From contig NZ_BLWF01000003.1 in the NCBI RefSeq assembly GCF_013167955.1, forward strand, positions 496,001 through 560,000: a DNA stretch of 64,000 nucleotides. The letters are read 5' to 3'. This document shows, piece after piece, positions 13,674 through 23,625 of this stretch. This DNA is from Thermanaeromonas sp. C210 (GTDB lineage Bacteria > Bacillota > DSM-521 > Neomoorellales > Neomoorellaceae). Within the stretch, counting starts at the first letter, position 1; every line of letters begins with the position of its first letter. The position numbers were made by a program, and so were the translations under genes. The notes below the pieces were generated by a model. The model had not been told where the DNA came from. It saw nothing but the letters and a program-made list of their open reading frames with translations, and searched no databases.

Positions 13674-15722
13674 ATGAAGGTGTACCCCACAGAAAGCATC
13701 CGCAACGTCGCCATTGTGGCCCACGGCGGGGCAGGGAAGACCAGCCTTACCGAGGCGCTCCTGTACAACGCGGGCGCCACCAAGCGCCTGGGCAGGGTAG
13801 AAGAGGGCAACACGGTGACCGATTTCCACCCTGAAGAGGTCAAGCGCAAGGTAACCATCAACACTTCCCTGGCTTTTTGCGAGTGGAAGGATAACAAAAT
13901 AAATCTCCTGGACACCCCGGGTTACGCCGATTTCTTCGGCGACGTCCTGGCCGCCCTCCGGGTGGCAGACGGCCTGGTGGTGGTCTTAAGCGCCGTGGCC
14001 GGCGTGGAAGTTCAGACCGAGATCGTCTGGGAGCATGCCGACGCCCACGGCCTACCGCGGCTGGCCTACATCAACAAGATGGACCGGGAGAATGCCAACT
14101 TCCACAAAGCCCTGGAAAGCATGAAAGAACGTCTGAGCGGCAATATAGTTCCGGTCCAGCTCCCCATAGGAGCGGCGGAAACCTTCACCGGCATCGTCGA
14201 CATCCTGAACTTAAAGGCCTACTCCTACCAGAACGGAAAAGCCCAGGAAATCCCCATACCGCCCGAGTACGAAGACGAAGTAAATACCATAAGGGAATCC
14301 CTAATTGAAGCGGCGGCCGAAGGCGACGACGAGCTCTTGATGAAATACCTGGAAGGGGAAGAGCTTACGGAAGAAGAGATACGCCGGGGCCTGAAAGAGG
14401 CGGTGGCCGGCGGCAAGGTCATCCCCGTGCTCTGCGGTTCGGCCGTCAAGAATATAGCCGTGGAACCCCTCCTCGACTTCATCGTGGATTACCTGCCTTC
14501 CCCGGCGGCCAGGGCGGGCAAATCGAGCGAAGAACTGGAGAAGGAGCCCCTGGCGGCCCTCATCTTCAAAACCCTGGCCGACCCCTACGTCGGGAAGCTC
14601 AGCATGTTCCGCGTCTACGGCGGCACCTTCCGGCCCGATACCACCGTCTACAACGCCAACAAAGAAACCGAAGAAAAAATCGGGTCCGTCTTCGCCCTCC
14701 AGGGCAAAAACCAGGTAGCCGTAACCGAGCTCAAACCCGGAGACATAGGAGCGGTAACGAAGCTCTCCGTTTCGGCCACCTGCGACACCTTGACCACTAA
14801 GGCCCATCCCGCGCGCCTGGAGGGCATAGAGTTCCCCGAACCCACCCTCCCCGTGGCCATCCGGCCCAAGAGCAAGGGAGATGAAGATAAGCTCAGCAAC
14901 GGCCTGGCCCGCCTCCTGGAAGAGGATCCCACCCTGCGCATCGAGAAGAACAACGAAACCCGCGAAACTATCCTCACCGGCATGGGCGAGCTCCACCTGG
15001 ACATCACCGTGGAGCGCCTCCAGTCCAAATTCGGCGTGGCCGTGGAAATGTCCACCCCCAAAGTGCCCTACCGCGAAACCATCAAAGGCTCTGTTACCCG
15101 CATCGAGGGTAAGTACAAGAAGCAGACGGGCGGCCGCGGCCAGTACGGCCACGTCTTCCTCGACATGTCGCCCCTGCCGGACCAGGAATTCGAGTTTACG
15201 GAAACCATCTTCGGCGGGGTGGTGCCGCGCCAGTACATCCCCGCCGTGGAAAAGGGCGTGAGGGAGGCCATGCAGGAAGGCATCCTGGCAGGCTACCCGG
15301 TGACCAACATCAAGATAAACCTGGCGGACGGTTCCTACCACCCCGTGGACTCTTCGGAGATGGCCTTCAAGATCGCGGCGAGCATGGCCTTCAAGAAAGC
15401 CATGGAGCAGGCCAAGCCGGTCCTGCTGGAGCCCATCATGAACGTGGAGATCACCGTGCCCGAGCAGTTCATGGGCGACATCATCGGCGACCTCAACGGC
15501 CGCCGCGGCCGCGTCTTCGGCATGGAGCCCCGAGGCAAGTACCAGGTCATCCGCGCCCAGGTGCCCCTGGCCGAGATGTACCGCTACGCCATCGACCTGA
15601 AGTCCCTCACCCAGGGCCGGGGCCGCTTCCACATGGAGTTCGACCACTACGAGGAAGTGCCGGCCGGCATTGCCGACAAGGTCATCCAGGCGGCCAGGGC
15701 GGCCCGGGAGAAGGAAGAATAA
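13674..15722 (+). CDS. fusA: Elongation factor G-like GTPase (EF-G paralogue)
   Basis: A 682-residue five-domain translational GTPase. G1 is AHGGAGKTS (canonical EF-G has AHIDAGKTT), G3 is DTPGYADFFGD, and G4 is NKMD. The domain IV loop GGRGQYGHVFLDM and C-terminal GDIIGDLNGRRGRVFGME are EF-G features. The changed P-loop, and the lack of rpsL/rpsG/tuf neighbours, mark it as the second EF-G type (EF-G2-like) rather than the operon-encoded translocase. Such paralogues may act in ribosome recycling or under stress; which applies here is unknown. AGGAGG lies 13 bases before the ATG. Confidence 0.85.
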   Translation: MKVYPTESIRNVAIVAHGGAGKTSLTEALLYNAGATKRLGRVEEGNTVTDFHPEEVKRKVTINTSLAFCEWKDNKINLLDTPGYADFFGDVLAALRVADGLVVVLSAVAGVEVQTEIVWEHADAHGLPRLAYINKMDRENANFHKALESMKERLSGNIVPVQLPIGAAETFTGIVDILNLKAYSYQNGKAQEIPIPPEYEDEVNTIRESLIEAAAEGDDELLMKYLEGEELTEEEIRRGLKEAVAGGKVIPVLCGSAVKNIAVEPLLDFIVDYLPSPAARAGKSSEELEKEPLAALIFKTLADPYVGKLSMFRVYGGTFRPDTTVYNANKETEEKIGSVFALQGKNQVAVTELKPGDIGAVTKLSVSATCDTLTTKAHPARLEGIEFPEPTLPVAIRPKSKGDEDKLSNGLARLLEEDPTLRIEKNNETRETILTGMGELHLDITVERLQSKFGVAVEMSTPKVPYRETIKGSVTRIEGKYKKQTGGRGQYGHVFLDMSPLPDQEFEFTETIFGGVVPRQYIPAVEKGVREAMQEGILAGYPVTNIKINLADGSYHPVDSSEMAFKIAASMAFKKAMEQAKPVLLEPIMNVEITVPEQFMGDIIGDLNGRRGRVFGMEPRGKYQVIRAQVPLAEMYRYAIDLKSLTQGRGRFHMEFDHYEEVPAGIADKVIQAARAAREKEE

Positions 15723-15827
15723 GGAAAGACCTGTTAAGGGGAGCGGCGAAGGCCCGTGCCACCCGGGCCGGGAGCCGGGCAACCTATGGCAGGCTTCTTA
15801 TGGAGCAGGGTGTCGGCATGTTAGCGG

Positions 15828-16028
15828 GCCTGCCTTGGCTCACGCTCGCTCCGGTGAACTTCGCGGGCCAAACTAGCCCCCGGCTGAGGGCTCCGGCAGG
15901 CTTCCCGGCAAATTCGCCATCCTGTCTCAGTTGCCGGCCTCGGCCATCCATGGCCTCGGGCCGGCCTCCGCCCTCCGCCGGAGCGCAAGTTTAGCTAGCC
16001 GCTCAGTTCAAGTCGCTCGCTTTGGAGC
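15828..16028 (+). repeat. Dispersed repeat element, copy A (upstream of addB)
   Basis: This stretch recurs in inverted orientation at 19621-19820. A 57-base core (15904-15960) differs from the other copy at one position. Patches outside it, such as GCGGGCCAAACTAGC and CAAGTCGCTCGC, are also shared, with diverged sequence between. The core holds a hairpin, CCGGCAA (15905-15911) with TTGCCGG (15931-15937) and a 19-base loop, then the palindrome GGCCATCCATGGCC. No convincing gene is present. The whole 15723-16109 gap between fusA and addB contains only this element plus unremarkable GC-rich sequence. Confidence 0.8.
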
Positions 16029-16109
16029 CAAGGCAGGCCCGCCTTCTTAGGCCCTTCCTGCCTCCCCACGCGAGGGCCCGGCCGCCGCTCCCACCTTGGA
16101 GAGACCTGC

Positions 16110-19100
16110 ATGAGCCTTCACTTCATCCTCGGCCGCGCCGGCACCGGAAAAACCCGCTACTGCCTCGAAGCCATCCGCCGGGAACTCCTGGCCGCCCCAG
16201 ACGGCCCGGCCCTCATCCTGTTGGTTCCCGAACAGGCCACCTTCCAGATGGAAAAGGCCCTGGTCACCGCCCCGGGCCTCAAGGGCTCCATCCGCGCCCA
16301 GGTCCTGAGTTTCCGCCGGCTGGCCTGGCGGGTTGCCCAGGAAGTAGGAGGTGCCGTTCGCCCCTACATCGGAGACCTGGCCAGGCACATGCTCCTGCGG
16401 CGCCTCCTGGAACACCACGCCGGGCAACTCCAGATCCTCGGCCGCGCCGCCTGGCGGCAGCCCGGCTTCCTGGCCGAAGTGGCCTCCACCCTGCGGGAGT
16501 TCAAGCACTACCGCCTCACCCCCGGACTAGTGCGCCAGGCCGCCGCCCAGGTTGCCTCCTCCGATCCTTCCGGCACCCTGGCGGCCAAGCTCCGGGACCT
16601 GGCCCTCCTGTGGGAGGAAATGGAGAAGGCCCTGGCCCCCAAATTCCAGGACCCCGAGGACACCCTGGAGCACCTGGCCGCCAACCTCCTGCGGAGCAGG
16701 GAACTCCGAGAAGCCGAGATCTGGGTGGACGGCTTCACCGGCTTCACCCCCCAGGAATACGCCGTGCTGGAGGGCCTCCTCAAGATCGGCCGCCGCGTCC
16801 ACGTCACCCTGTGCCTGGACCGCCCGGGCCCGGCGCCCGCCTCCCCGGGAGTCGACCCCTTTTATCCCGCCCGGGAAACCCGGGACAAACTTAAAGACCT
16901 TGCCCGCCGGTTGGGTATGACCGTAGAGCCGCCCACAGTGCTGGACGGGGAGCCTCCCCCTCGCTTCTCCGCGGCCCCGGCCCTGGCCTACATAGAACGC
17001 AACTTCTTCCGGCCCGGCGCCCCGGCCTTCGCCGGGGAAACGGCCTCCGTCCGCCTCCTCGCCGCCTCCGACCGTAGGGCTGAGGTGGAGGGAGTGGCCC
17101 GGGAGATCGTCCACCTCTGCCGCACCCGGGGCTACCGCTGGCGGGACGTAGCCGTAATGGTGCGCGACCTGGACCTCTACCGGGACCTCCTGGTCAATGT
17201 CTTCACCGACTACGGCATCCCCTTCTTCCTGGACGCCAAGCGGCCCCTTTTGCATCATCCCGCGGTAGAGCTCCTGCGGGCCGCGGTGGAAACCGTGGAC
17301 CGGGACTGGGCCTACGAGCCCCTTTTCCGGCTCCTAAAAACCGACCTCGCGCCTTTAAGCCGGGAGGAAGTGGACGTCCTGGAAAACTACGTCCTGGCCC
17401 ACGGCATCCGCGGCGAGCGCTGGATCGACGGCCGTCCGTGGACCTACCGCCTCCGCTACACCCTGGACGAAGACTGGGAGCCCGGCCCCGGCGACGAAGA
17501 AGACCTGGAGCGCATTAACCATCTCAGGGAACGGGTGGTGGCCTTCCTCGGCCCCTTCCACCGGGCCCTCCGCAGCTCCCGGAACGTGCGGGAAACCACC
17601 CTGGCCCTCTACAACCTCCTCCTCCGGCTGGACGTCCCCGGCCGCCTCGAGGCCTGGCGCACCCGGGCCATGGAAGAAGGCCGCCTGGACGAGGCCCAGG
17701 AGCACGCCCAGATCTGGGAGGCCGTGGTGGAGGTCCTGGAGCAGCTGGTGGAGATCCTGGGAGATGAAACCCTCACCTTGAGGGAGTACGCCCAGATCCT
17801 CGCCGCGGGCCTGGAGGGCTGGCGCCTGAGCCTGGTGCCCCAGGGGCTGGACCAGGTCCTCATAGCCTCCCTGGACCGCTCCCGCCACCCGGAAGTGCGG
17901 GCCGCCTTCCTCGTAGGGGTCAACGAGGGCGTCTTCCCCGCCCGGCCCCCCGCCGGCGGCTTCCTCAAGGACGCCGAGAGGGAGCGCCTCAAAGAGAAGG
18001 GCATCGACCTCGCCCCCTACGGCGAAAGGCTGCTGCTGGAGGAGCAGCACCTCATCTACCTGGCCCTCACGCGCTCCCGGGAACTCCTCACCCTGAGCTA
18101 TGCCCAGGCCGACGAAGAGGGCAGGGCTCTGCGGCCCTCCCAGGTTATAAACCGCCTAAAGGCCTTGCTGCCTGGCGTGGAGGAGACAACCCTGGGCCCG
18201 GAGCCGTCCCCGGCCGGGGATTCCCTCTCCTACATAGCCCGCCCCGGCCCCGTCCTGTCCTTCCTCGCCGGCCAGCTCCGCCGCTTCAAGGACGGTGAAG
18301 AAATAGACCCGGCGTGGTTTGACGTGTATAATTGGGCCCGGGAGCACCCGGAGTACCGCCCCCGGCTGGCCAAAATCCTTGACGGCCTGTTCTACACCAA
18401 CCGGGAAGAGCCCCTGAGCCCGGAGATAAGCCGGGCCCTGTACGGCGACACCGTAAAGAGCAGCGTCTCCCGCCTGGAGAGCTTCCAGGCCTGTCCCTTT
18501 TCCCACTTCCTGGGCCACGGTCTGAAGCTCAAGGAGCGGCGCCGCTATAAACTCGTGGCGCCGGACCTGGGCCGGTTTTTCCACGCCGCCCTCAAAAAAC
18601 TGGCCGCCGCGGTAATGGAAGGGGAGGTGGACTGGGGGACTCTGGACCCCGATTACTGCCGGGACCTCGGCCGCCGCATCGCCGAGGAACTGGCCCCCCA
18701 GCTCCAAAACGAGATCCTCCTCAGCACGGCCCGCTACCGCTACCTCACCCGCAAACTCCGGCAGACGGTGGAGCAGGCCGCCGGCGTCCTCACCGAGCAG
18801 GCCCGGCACAGCGCCTTCCGGCCCGCCGGGTTGGAGCTGGCCTTCGGCCGGGGGGAAAGCCTGCCGCCCCTGGAAATCCCCCTGGCCGGGGGAAGGGTGC
18901 TGGAGATCTCCGGACGCATCGACCGGGTGGACGTGGCCCCCGGCCCCGAAGGGCTCTGGGTGCGGGTGGTGGACTACAAATCCGGCCCCGCCGACCTCAA
19001 GCTCCCGGATCTCTACTGGGGCCTGAAGCTCCAGCTCTTCACCTACTTGGAAGTGCTCCTCACCTTCGGTCCCGGCCTCTTCGGCCGGCCGTGCCTCCCG

Positions 19101-19565
19101 GCAGGGGTCCTGTACTTCCCGGTCGTCAACCCCCTGGTCAGGACCCCGGGCCCGGCCGCCGGGGCGCCCGAAGAGGAGCTCCTGAAAAAATTCCGGATGA
19201 AGGGCTTCGTGGTGGCCCACCTGCCGGCCCTGAAGCTCATGGACGACCACCTGCCGGAGCCGTCGCCCTTCCTGCCCGTAAGCGTCAGGAGGGACGGCAC
19301 CCTGGACGCCCGGTCCGCCGCCCTCACGGCGGACCAGATCCAGTCCCTCAGGCGGCACCTCCGCCGCCTCCTGCAGGAAATAGGCGAGCGCATCGCCCGG
19401 GGCGAGGTGGACATCGCCCCCTACCGCCGGCGGGGAACCTCGCCGTGCCGTTACTGCCCCTACCGGCCCGTCTGCGGCTTCGATCCGCTGCTGCCTGGCG
19501 GCGGCTACCGCTTCCTGCCCGACCCGGACGCCCGGGAGATCTGGAAGCGGCTGCTACAAGAGTGA
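16110..19565 (+). CDS. addB: AddB, helicase-nuclease subunit B
   Basis: AddB (1151 residues) partners AddA in the AddAB helicase-nuclease, which processes double-strand breaks and degrades linear foreign DNA until it meets a Chi site. The N-terminal P-loop is GRAGTGKT (residues 7-14). Near the C-terminus, GRIDRVD and VDYKSG (about 935-958) form the RecB-type nuclease site. Four cysteines at C795, C1113, C1116 and C1122 make the iron-sulphur staple typical of AddB. It lies between two inverted repeat elements, and addA follows about 350 bases later, an unusually long gap for this pair. Confidence 0.94.
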   Translation: MSLHFILGRAGTGKTRYCLEAIRRELLAAPDGPALILLVPEQATFQMEKALVTAPGLKGSIRAQVLSFRRLAWRVAQEVGGAVRPYIGDLARHMLLRRLLEHHAGQLQILGRAAWRQPGFLAEVASTLREFKHYRLTPGLVRQAAAQVASSDPSGTLAAKLRDLALLWEEMEKALAPKFQDPEDTLEHLAANLLRSRELREAEIWVDGFTGFTPQEYAVLEGLLKIGRRVHVTLCLDRPGPAPASPGVDPFYPARETRDKLKDLARRLGMTVEPPTVLDGEPPPRFSAAPALAYIERNFFRPGAPAFAGETASVRLLAASDRRAEVEGVAREIVHLCRTRGYRWRDVAVMVRDLDLYRDLLVNVFTDYGIPFFLDAKRPLLHHPAVELLRAAVETVDRDWAYEPLFRLLKTDLAPLSREEVDVLENYVLAHGIRGERWIDGRPWTYRLRYTLDEDWEPGPGDEEDLERINHLRERVVAFLGPFHRALRSSRNVRETTLALYNLLLRLDVPGRLEAWRTRAMEEGRLDEAQEHAQIWEAVVEVLEQLVEILGDETLTLREYAQILAAGLEGWRLSLVPQGLDQVLIASLDRSRHPEVRAAFLVGVNEGVFPARPPAGGFLKDAERERLKEKGIDLAPYGERLLLEEQHLIYLALTRSRELLTLSYAQADEEGRALRPSQVINRLKALLPGVEETTLGPEPSPAGDSLSYIARPGPVLSFLAGQLRRFKDGEEIDPAWFDVYNWAREHPEYRPRLAKILDGLFYTNREEPLSPEISRALYGDTVKSSVSRLESFQACPFSHFLGHGLKLKERRRYKLVAPDLGRFFHAALKKLAAAVMEGEVDWGTLDPDYCRDLGRRIAEELAPQLQNEILLSTARYRYLTRKLRQTVEQAAGVLTEQARHSAFRPAGLELAFGRGESLPPLEIPLAGGRVLEISGRIDRVDVAPGPEGLWVRVVDYKSGPADLKLPDLYWGLKLQLFTYLEVLLTFGPGLFGRPCLPAGVLYFPVVNPLVRTPGPAAGAPEEELLKKFRMKGFVVAHLPALKLMDDHLPEPSPFLPVSVRRDGTLDARSAALTADQIQSLRRHLRRLLQEIGERIARGEVDIAPYRRRGTSPCRYCPYRPVCGFDPLLPGGGYRFLPDPDAREIWKRLLQE

Positions 19566-19620
19566 CCGGCGCCACCCGGGCAGGCCCTCGTGTACCGCCC
19601 GTCTTGATGAGGGTGATTTA

Positions 19621-19820
19621 GCTCGCAAGCGAGCGACTTGAGCCGAGCGGAACACCAAACTTAGCGAAATCGAGGCCGGAGGCGGACCCGAGGCCATGGA
19701 TGGCCGAGGCCGGCAACTGAGACAGGATGTCGAATTTGCCGGGAAGTCCGCCGAAGCTTGAGGCCTTTGTGCTAGTTTGGCCCGCGAGGGTTTCCGGAGC
19801 GAGCGAAAGCCAGGCAGGCC
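19621..19820 (-). repeat. Dispersed repeat element, copy B (between addB and addA)
   Basis: Inverted copy of the 15828-16028 element. The core at 19687-19743 matches copy A on the opposite strand with one mismatch in 57 bases. The hairpin arms are CCGGCAA (19710-19716) and TTGCCGG (19736-19742), again with a 19-base loop, and the palindrome is kept. It fills most of the 19566-19917 gap. A short, shared hypothetical peptide can be read across both copies, but the pattern of gaps argues against coding. Confidence 0.8.
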
Positions 19821-19917
19821 TAGGCTCGAAAGTGGGGATAACGCAAGGCCAAGCCCGGCGCGGGAGGAGAATATTTTAAGGTAGAATAAGGCAGAGTAGG
19901 GGAGAGGGAGAAACCGG

Positions 19918-22900
19918 ATGCCGACAACCTGGACGCCCGAACAGAGGGAAGCCATCGAAACGAGGGACGCCCACCTCCTCATCTCGGCCTCCGCCGGGGC
20001 GGGGAAGACCGCCGTCCTCGTGCAGCGGGTAATCGAGCGCCTCACCGATCCCAGGTGCCCCGCGGACATCGACCGCCTCCTGGTGGTCACCTTCACCCAG
20101 GCGGCGGCCGCCGAAATGCGCGAGCGCATCGGGCTGGCCCTGGCCCAGGCCCTGGCCCGGGAGCCCCATGCGGCCCACCTTCGGCGTCAGCTCCTCCTCC
20201 TGGAGCAGGCCAGCATCACCACCCTCCACTCCTTCTGCCTGGACCTCATGCGCCGGTACTTCTACCTCCTCCAGCTCCCGCCCTCCTTCCGGGTCATGGG
20301 GGAGACAGAATCCTCCCTCCTCCGCCAGGAAATCCTGGAAGAAGTGCTGGAGGACCGCTACGCCCGGGCCCTGGAGGCCGCGTCCCCCTTCGGCCGCCTG
20401 GTGGACTCCTTCGGCGGCCAGAGGGACGACCGCCTCCTCCAGGACCTCATCCTCCGCCTCTACACCTTCTCCCGCACCCATCCCTGGCCCCGCTGGTGGC
20501 TGGAAAGGCTCCCGGAGGCCTACCGGAACGATGCCGCGGCCTCCCCGGACGACCTCCCCTGGGTGCGAGCCTTGAGGGAGGGCCTCGCCCGGGAAATAAA
20601 GGATCTCGTGGCCAAGGCCAGGGAGGCCCTGGCCCTGGCCCAGAGCCCCGGAGGCCCGGCGCCCTATGCCGACGCCCTCAGGGCCGACCTGGCCCAGATG
20701 GAAGACCTTTACCAAGCGGCCCGCAGGTCCTGGGACGACCTCTGCCGCGCCGCCCGGAACATGGAGTTCCCCGCCTTAAGGCGCTGTCCCGCCGGGGTGG
20801 ACCCCGAACTCAAAGACCGGGTCCAGGCCCTGCGGCAGGACTATAAAGACCGCCTGCGCTCCTGGCAGCAGACCTACTTCACCCACACCTCCGCCGCCGT
20901 CCTCTCCGCCCTGCGGGACCTGGCGCCCCTGGTGGAAGAGCTGGTCCAGGCAGTGCTGGACTTCGGTCGGGCCTACCAGGAGGCCAAGGAACAGCAGGGC
21001 CTGGTGGACTTCAGCGACCTCGAGCACTACTGCCTGCGCCTCCTCCTAGACCCCGAGGCCACCCCCGGGGACCCCCGCCCGTCAGACCTCGCCCGGGAGC
21101 TCCGGGAACACTTTGTAGAGGTCCTGGTGGACGAATACCAGGACATAAACGCCCTCCAGGAACTCATCCTCCACCTCGTCTCCCGGCCGGAGGGGGAGGG
21201 GCCCAACCTGGTCCTCATAGGGGACGTGAAGCAGAGCATCTACCGCTTCCGCTGGGCCGAGCCGGGCCTCTTCCTGGAAAAATACCTCACCTACGGCCGG
21301 AGTCCCGGCAGCCGGCGGCGCCGCGTGGACCTCACCGTCAACTTCCGCAGCCGCCCCGAGATCCTCCACGCCGTGAACTTCATCTTCCGCCAGATCATGA
21401 CCCCGGAGGTGGGGGAACTGGACTACGACGAAGCCGCCGAGCTGCGCCCCGGCGCCTCCTACCCGGCGGGGGAAGGGGGCGGCCAGGTGGAGGTGCACCT
21501 CCTGGAGCTGGCCGGCCGGGACGAGCCCGCCCCGCCCGCCGGGCCCGAAGGCGAGGAACCTGACGAAGAAGAGCCGGAGGCCGTCCAGGCCGAGGCCCGC
21601 CTGGTGGCCCGCCGCATCCGGGAGCTCCTGGAGGACACCCGCGTATGGGACCCGGCCACCGGCTCCTGCCGGCCCCTGGCCTACCGCGACATAGCCGTGC
21701 TCCTGCGCTCCACCCGGGGAAGGGCCGGGATTTTCCTAGAAGAGTTGGCCCGGGCGGGGATTCCGGCCTACGCCGACACCGGGGAGGGCTACTTCGCCTC
21801 CCCTGAGGTGGCCACGGTGGTGTCCCTCCTCCAGGTCATCGACAACCCCTACCAGGACATCCCCCTGGCCGCCGTCCTCCGCTCGCCCCTGGTGGGCCTC
21901 AAGGCCGCCGACCTGGCCCGGATCCGCGCCGCCCACCCCGGGGAGGAATTCGCCGCCGCCGTCCTGGCGGAGGCCCGGTCCGGGCGGGGTCCCCTGGCCG
22001 CCCGGCTGGCCGCCTTCTGGCAAAAACTCGAATCCTGGCGCACCCTGGCCCGCCGGGGTAAGCCCTCGGACCTCATCTGGACCATCTTCCGCGAAACCGG
22101 CTACTACGACTGGGCCGGGGGACTGCCAGGCGGCCGCTACCGCCAGGCCAACCTGCGGGCCCTCATCGACCGGGCCCGCCAGTACGAACAAACCTCCTTG
22201 CGCGGCCTTTTCGGTTTCCTGCGCTTCATCGACCGGCTCATGGAGAGGGGAGAAGACCTGGCCGAGGCCCAGCCCCTGGGGGAGAAGGAAGACGTGGTGA
22301 GGGTCATAAGCGTCCACAAGAGCAAGGGCCTCGAGTTCCCCGTAGTTATCGTGGCCGGCCTGGGCACCCGGTTCAACTTCCAGGACCTCTACCGGAACAG
22401 TCTCATCCACCGGGAACTCGGCCTCGGCCTGGAGTGGGTGGACCCCGAAAGGAGGCTCGCCTATCCCACCCTCCTGCACCTCGCCGTGCGGGACCGCCTG
22501 AAAAAGGAGACCCTGGCCGAGGAAATGCGCATCCTCTACGTGGCCCTCACCCGCGCCCGGGAAAAGCTCATCCTGGTGGGCAGCTTCAGGGGAGGGGAGA
22601 AGGGCCTGCCGGGCCTCAACCCTGCGGCGGCTGCGGCCAGTGCTAAGCTGCCGGCATCCTCCCTGGCCCGGGCCCGCTCCTTTCTCGACTGGCTCCTGCC
22701 CGCCCTGGCCCGCCACCCCGACGGGGAGGAAATCCGCCGCCGGGCGGGCTCGTCCCAGGCTCCGCCACGGCTCCTCCAGGACCCCTCCTCCTGGGAAATA
22801 CGCTTCTTCACCCTGCGGGACCTGGCCGGTGCGGCAGAGCCCGGCGCTGAAGAGGAACTCGGCGCCCTGGCCGCCCTGCGGGCCCTGGAGCCCGTGCCCG

Positions 22901-23625
22901 CCGGGCCCCGCCGGGAGGAGATAGTGTCCGTCCTGGAGTGGGAATACCCTTACCACGCCTGGGCCTCTGTCCCCGCCAAGGTATCCGTCAGCGACCTGAC
23001 CACGCGGGAGGACCACCTCTTCCTCCAGGACGACGTGGCCGTGCGTCCCTACCTTCCCCGCGTGGCCCGGCAGCCGCGCTTCGCCACGCAAGCGGCCGGG
23101 CTTTCCGCCGCCGAGGTGGGCAGCGCATACCACCTGGTCATGCAGCACCTCAACCTCAAGGCGGACCTCGACGCGGCCGGCATCGCCCGCCAGATACAGG
23201 ACCTCGTGGACCGGGAAATCCTCACCGCCGAACAGGCCGCCGCCGTGTCCTGCGCGGACATCGCTGCCTTGTTTGCCACGGATCTCGGCCGCCGCCTGCT
23301 GGCCGCCCGGACCGTGCGGCGGGAAGTTCCCTTCACCCTGTCCCTGCCCGCGTGCCGCCTGTACCCGGAGCTGGAAGGGGAGGGGGCCGGGGAAAGCGTG
23401 GTAGTACAGGGCATCATCGACTGCCTGGCCGATGAAGGCGACGGCTGGCTCCTCATCGACTACAAGACGGACCGGGTAGACCCCGGCAACCTGCAGGAAG
23501 TGGTACGGCACTACACACCGCAGTTAAACATATACGGCCTAGCCGTAGAAACCATCTACGGCCGGCCCGTCAAAGAAAAATACCTCTACTTCTTCACACC
23601 CGGCATCCCCGTAAGCTGCCCCTAG
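19918..23625 (+). CDS. addA: AddA, helicase-nuclease subunit A
   Basis: A 1235-residue UvrD-like helicase with a C-terminal RecB-family nuclease, the catalytic partner of AddB. Walker A is SASAGAGKTA (about residues 23-32). Motif II is DEYQDINALQE (about 405), then VKQSIYRFR (about 440), VISVHKSKGLEFPVVIV (about 798) and ILYVALTRAREKLI (about 870). The nuclease site is GIIDCLADEGDGWLLIDYKTD (about 1165-1185; GIID and DYKTD are its ends). The ATG follows GGGGAGAGGGAG. The length and motif set suggest it is fully active. Confidence 0.95.
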   Translation: MPTTWTPEQREAIETRDAHLLISASAGAGKTAVLVQRVIERLTDPRCPADIDRLLVVTFTQAAAAEMRERIGLALAQALAREPHAAHLRRQLLLLEQASITTLHSFCLDLMRRYFYLLQLPPSFRVMGETESSLLRQEILEEVLEDRYARALEAASPFGRLVDSFGGQRDDRLLQDLILRLYTFSRTHPWPRWWLERLPEAYRNDAAASPDDLPWVRALREGLAREIKDLVAKAREALALAQSPGGPAPYADALRADLAQMEDLYQAARRSWDDLCRAARNMEFPALRRCPAGVDPELKDRVQALRQDYKDRLRSWQQTYFTHTSAAVLSALRDLAPLVEELVQAVLDFGRAYQEAKEQQGLVDFSDLEHYCLRLLLDPEATPGDPRPSDLARELREHFVEVLVDEYQDINALQELILHLVSRPEGEGPNLVLIGDVKQSIYRFRWAEPGLFLEKYLTYGRSPGSRRRRVDLTVNFRSRPEILHAVNFIFRQIMTPEVGELDYDEAAELRPGASYPAGEGGGQVEVHLLELAGRDEPAPPAGPEGEEPDEEEPEAVQAEARLVARRIRELLEDTRVWDPATGSCRPLAYRDIAVLLRSTRGRAGIFLEELARAGIPAYADTGEGYFASPEVATVVSLLQVIDNPYQDIPLAAVLRSPLVGLKAADLARIRAAHPGEEFAAAVLAEARSGRGPLAARLAAFWQKLESWRTLARRGKPSDLIWTIFRETGYYDWAGGLPGGRYRQANLRALIDRARQYEQTSLRGLFGFLRFIDRLMERGEDLAEAQPLGEKEDVVRVISVHKSKGLEFPVVIVAGLGTRFNFQDLYRNSLIHRELGLGLEWVDPERRLAYPTLLHLAVRDRLKKETLAEEMRILYVALTRAREKLILVGSFRGGEKGLPGLNPAAAAASAKLPASSLARARSFLDWLLPALARHPDGEEIRRRAGSSQAPPRLLQDPSSWEIRFFTLRDLAGAAEPGAEEELGALAALRALEPVPAGPRREEIVSVLEWEYPYHAWASVPAKVSVSDLTTREDHLFLQDDVAVRPYLPRVARQPRFATQAAGLSAAEVGSAYHLVMQHLNLKADLDAAGIARQIQDLVDREILTAEQAAAVSCADIAALFATDLGRRLLAARTVRREVPFTLSLPACRLYPELEGEGAGESVVVQGIIDCLADEGDGWLLIDYKTDRVDPGNLQEVVRHYTPQLNIYGLAVETIYGRPVKEKYLYFFTPGIPVSCP

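Follow-up and report, generated by a model that had tools for sequence, protein, structure and literature searches.

ERIC, bcr1, RUP, BOX and NEMIS are short, palindromic, RNA-structured repeats, non-autonomous, multicopy and mostly intergenic, and each is usually confined to one group. The TwoAYGGAY RNA motif (Rfam RF01731), whose function has been unknown since its description in 2010 (Weinberg, PMC2864571), was later proposed to bind CsrA (Gardner and Eldai, PMC4333381). Here we describe a repeat that is like the ERIC-type repeats in all of these features except the confinement to one group and has a core related to TwoAYGGAY. Two of its copies lie in inverted orientation on either side of addB in the stretch of 64,000 nucleotides that was analysed (the window). 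On balance we favor the reading that a TwoAYGGAY-like, possibly CsrA-binding RNA core is carried by several families of MITEs.

Results

The first window copy (15824..16042, with its GGA strand on the minus strand) is located between a gene that we take, from recognition of its sequence, to encode an EF-G-like GTPase (13674..15722, plus strand) and addB (16110..19565, plus strand). Its terminal repeats are no longer recognizable, and a perfect 18-bp inner inverted repeat lies at its edges. The second copy, terminal repeats included, spans 19587..19846, with its GGA strand on the plus strand, between addB and addA (19918..23625, plus strand). As read from the sequence, its left end (19587-19605) is degraded and its right end (19829-19846) is good, and it is flanked by imperfect 9-bp repeats (gggcaggcc and ggccaagcc, 7/9 identical). 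The two copies have complementary arms, the central ones of 86 nt (15890-15975 and 19672-19757, 92% complementary) and further ones of 42 nt (15836-15877 and 19771-19812, 86%) and 45 nt (15987-16031 and 19618-19662, 78%), confirming the original prediction of an inverted non-coding pair around addB. The predicted 57-base common core with one mismatch was recovered as ~59 nt with a single difference (C versus A), and the hairpin CCGGCAA/TTGCCGG with its 19-nt loop, as well as the palindrome GGCCATCCATGGCC, is present as claimed. Apart from the two copies, both of which score above 100 bits with the R1 family model, the window contains no match to this model at an E value of 0.01. A scan of the window at Rfam gathering thresholds returned tRNAs only, and an E-value scan of near copies against Rfam gave no match for the element, whose link to Rfam emerged only with distant homologs (see below). 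A direct 7-bp repeat, CTTCTTA, is found on both sides of copy 1 (15794-15800 and 16043-16049) and could represent an old insertion mark or chance.

A search of 23 genomes found addB conserved in 21. In all 13 relatives examined it is followed by addA across an element-free gap of ~45-100 bp, compared with 352 bp here (19566-19917); the element thus does split the two genes as predicted, and they are still neighbors in their normal order. In two relatives (G004 and G007), the EF-G-like gene directly precedes addB. Because these sites are empty in relatives, the window copies represent independent insertions in this lineage, one in the EF-G/addB gap and the other in the addB/addA gap.

The pair belongs to a dispersed repeat family, one of the possibilities originally put forward: covariance model R1 identifies 57 core copies in this genome (G000) at E values up to 0.01, with covarying stems (see below), the kind of support named in the original prediction, and a DNA search scored 40 copies. 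By our rough estimate, chance would place a few pairs less than 4 kb apart, and the spacing of the window pair is unremarkable for 57 copies in 2.68 Mb. Alignment of 30 copies with their flanks gives a full element of ~262 bp, with a pairwise identity of 0.72-0.86 inside and 0.26-0.27 immediately outside. The element terminates in inverted repeats that follow the pattern CTGRSKTATCCCCAVTTT, which occurs 46+40 times in the genome as opposed to 3+1 times for the reversed control. Among the 31 copies with both ends, the flanking 9-mers agree at at least seven of nine positions in 19 (for example, GTGGCAGTA, ATGAATAAT, GATAATAAT, and CTCCTTCCC), compared with 8 of 930 mismatched pairings, which indicates a target duplication of 9 bp. 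Nearly all copies are intergenic, and the interior is non-coding by inspection, with no transposase gene inside. Three copies have the same interior at three different sites, so the family has recently been active. Two derivatives of ~110 bp, L107 (G000:C2:494416-494528) and L108 (C4:403525-403634), retain both ends and have lost the structured core; they are MITEs of this family that have undergone internal deletion. In the draft assembly G002 (L091-L099, L102, L103), many contigs start or stop inside the element, which indicates that the repeat breaks assemblies and that copy numbers in G002 are underestimates.

A 1120-bp element in the same genome (G000:C4:17613-18732) has MITE-type ends, a 9-bp duplication (cctgccggc), and a broken transposase, and its main reading frame matches the IS4-family model NF033591 (162.9 bits, cut-off 152) and also DDE_Tnp_1. 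Within L106 (G000:C4:16500-20000), this element occupies positions 1114-2233, its transposase is split into frames of 67 and 267 aa, and a further MITE-like copy starts right next to it. In G018, a genome of the same order in which the MITE is also present, a related intact transposase of 405 aa lies between the same kind of ends. The shared ends, the 9-bp duplications, the IS4 element, and the empty sites in relatives together lead us to classify the repeats as MITEs, and their mobile nature is close to certain. Judging from the common ends, an IS4-type transposase is the probable mobilizer: a member of the IS4 family that recognizes CTGRSKTATCCCC ends would mobilize the ~262-bp non-autonomous element in trans and produce the 9-bp target duplications.

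The central 90 nt form a three-way junction in which stem P1 meets two hairpins, P2, which has an inner stem, and P3. Across 39 distinct sequences, 92.9% of pairing cells are paired (80.9% in shuffles), two-sided changes occur at 12 pairs, and the covariation score, although inflated by the relatedness of the sequences, is 0.353, compared with 0.140 (SD 0.010) for shuffles and 0.03-0.11 for slid versions. Explicit stem variants are CCGGCAA/TTGCCGG, CCGGCTC/GAGCCGG, CCGGCCT/AGGCCGG, and CCGGCCC/GGGCCGG. Conservation is 0.86 in the core and 0.73-0.79 in the arms; since, within the same copies, the core is better conserved than either the arms or the ends, constraint is probable besides common descent. 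In copy 2, the core has a predicted fold of -43.5 kcal/mol (z -4.2) with the loops AUGGAU and AGGAU, and its GGA strand is the sense strand of addB and addA. In copy 1, a substitution makes the inner stem of P2 weaker.

Across 300 genomes of the phylum, R1 detects the core in 49. Of twelve distant R1 loci compared with Rfam, seven gave RF01731 at the R1 places, at 29-48 bits and on the opposite strand; the R1-linked homologs reach 48.3 and 42.7 bits, one of them above the gathering score of 43 bits. Used directly as a query against the genomes, RF01731 matched in 44 of them, with coordinates coinciding with those of R1 in G139, G150, G233, and G244. The cores of copy 1 (15886..15975, minus strand) and copy 2 (19672..19761, plus strand) match R1 on the strand opposite to these at 103.1 and 101.3 bits, and on these strands reach 16.4 and 21.1 bits with RF01731, far under the gathering score. 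Given the low direct scores and the matches of linked homologs, the window copies are relatives of TwoAYGGAY through a chain of matches rather than Rfam members, and the homology of the core to TwoAYGGAY-bearing elements is directly supported by these sequence matches. On the TwoAYGGAY strand, the apical loops keep GGA in 57 and 52 of 62 sequences (both loops in 49), and the tandem G-A is kept in 50 of 62, with Watson-Crick pairs sometimes in its place; this conservation favors the TwoAYGGAY strand as the folded one. Because of the covariation and of two models matching the same places, the MITE interior is taken to be a conserved three-way junction related to TwoAYGGAY, and the element is more than a deleted IS. 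A HEARO-type guide RNA was also considered and is absent from the Rfam matches.

The same core is found between other transposon ends. In G267, multi-copy alignment reveals sharply bounded elements with CAGACTGTAGACAAA ends and flanking direct repeats of ~9-13 bp, and CAGACTGTAGACAAA-type ends also enclose the copies in G138 that pass the Rfam cut-off. Elements with CGGAAATGACC ends contain the core in G116 and G032, elements with AAAACCCGGC ends in G243, and elements with GACAATTTTGA ends in genus g91. These sharply bounded elements with unrelated ends in other lineages place the core in several MITE families, and its different ends may have been either swapped or diverged. In G138 (L256-L261), the same intrinsic-terminator-like hairpin lies on both sides of the TwoAYGGAY-bearing elements, as if the target terminator had been duplicated on insertion. 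Genus g7 (L037-L060) has different ends again (CCCTGAAAATAA and TTATTTTCA), partly common to G307; a gene's ribosome-binding site often lies right beside these elements, whose GGA strand is mostly co-directional with genes (14 to 3).

CsrA presence in a first set of 41 relatives was weak evidence, and the comparison was hence enlarged to 300 genomes. In counts compiled manually from the genome listings, and without correction for phylogeny, CsrA is present in 47 of 49 R1-positive genomes and in 166 of 251 others (p 4e-6; genus level, p 1.4e-4), in 68 of 71 genomes positive by either model and in 145 of 229 others (p about 1e-8), and in 21 of 22 genomes found by the Rfam model only (p 0.0016). 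Two or three carriers of the element are without a CsrA match, and the present genome has two such matches. Spo0A, counted as a control in the same way, is present in 67 of 71 and 190 of 229 genomes, respectively (p 0.02). The CsrA link is stronger than this control, some lineage effect is present, and the co-occurrence may be due in part to lineage or motility.

Discussion

Several observations suggest what the structured interior might do. A transcript of the GGA strand would present GGA in both of its hairpin loops and would bind CsrA, such that the element would act as a dispersed CsrA sponge or as a local CsrA site, a reading we propose because of the loop conservation, the co-occurrence with CsrA, and the published prediction for the motif. 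That the GGA strand is transcribed and that CsrA binds it are what we infer from sequence, and an RNA-level role is plausible given the TwoAYGGAY homology, the conserved GGA loops, and the CsrA co-occurrence. A more far-reaching version, which we put forward tentatively and regard as less likely than not, is that several unrelated Bacillota MITE families carry as their cargo TwoAYGGAY, a CsrA-binding RNA that has repeatedly acquired transposon ends and disperses tens of CsrA sponges through host genomes, where they would either adjust the CsrA network or shield the element. The finding of TwoAYGGAY relatives between several kinds of transposon ends, nearly only together with CsrA, accounts for the scattered, multicopy distribution of the motif and opens the CsrA-sponge prediction to direct tests in Clostridia. 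A caution follows as well, as searches for structured RNAs can pick up mobile elements.

The repeat could alternatively be an ordinary MITE with a palindromic interior of no RNA function, its compensatory changes arising by template switching between the arms (quasipalindrome correction) and its conservation from recent spread and horizontal transfer. We regard this as unlikely, though it has several observations in its favor: within helices P1-P3, G-U departures are balanced against A-C departures (33 to 34) and show no strand asymmetry, the copies overall do not significantly prefer either orientation with respect to genes (44 to 33), mobility is strongly evidenced, and the core occurs in many lineages. 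An early impression of an orientation bias held in one genus only. Template switching, however, acts on stems, whereas here conservation extends to the loops and to the tandem G-A; moreover, the same core persists in elements with unrelated ends and is nearly confined to genomes with CsrA.

Less probable still is that the interior works at the level of the transposon or its DNA, as a hairpin or cruciform for a host factor or the transposase, or as a terminator or RNase site, and not through CsrA. Both strands are predicted to fold very stably, copies are almost all intergenic, and insertion in some lineages is at terminator-like hairpins, all of which would fit such a role. However, DDE transposition is not known to require an internal hairpin, the different ends imply that different transposases act on the same core, and this reading does not predict a link to CsrA.

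That the two repeats serve to invert addB, as the original prediction allowed, or form a composite transposon carrying it, is suggested by the two inverted copies bracketing the gene but can be rejected as highly improbable: in the 13 relatives compared, there is no sign of addB inversion, its order and orientation beside addA being the same at element-free sites, meaning that the repeats did not bring the gene in; 57 core copies are present in the genome, most of them away from addB; copy 1 has lost its terminal repeats; and no recombinase is implicated, since a DDE transposase with matching ends accounts for the spread. There is no evidence at the locus for a specific effect on addB, and the addB setting looks incidental.

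The papers retrieved make no mention of a TIR-bounded, target-duplicating context for TwoAYGGAY, and literature searches that paired MITEs with Moorella, Desulfotomaculum, or CsrA returned nothing about this element. Compared with TwoAYGGAY itself, the core has the same two GGA-loop hairpins on one strand, the three-way junction, and the tandem G-A beside one hairpin, and it marks the same genomic places when distant homologs are scanned; it differs in that the window copies reach 16-21 bits and sit within a TIR-bounded, target-duplicating element. With the sponge RNAs CsrB, CsrC, and RsmX/Y/Z, it has in common GGA in hairpin loops and paired sites, yet each element offers two predicted sites instead of many and exists in many dispersed, mobile copies. 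Like MITEs of IS4-family transposases, it has TIRs common to an IS4-family element, 9-bp duplications, a non-coding interior, and an intergenic spread, but this interior is a conserved structured core in place of an IS remnant and is also found with other ends. From ERIC, bcr1, RUP, BOX, and NEMIS, finally, it differs in its sequences and ends, and in having a core that is found across many families and with ends of several types.
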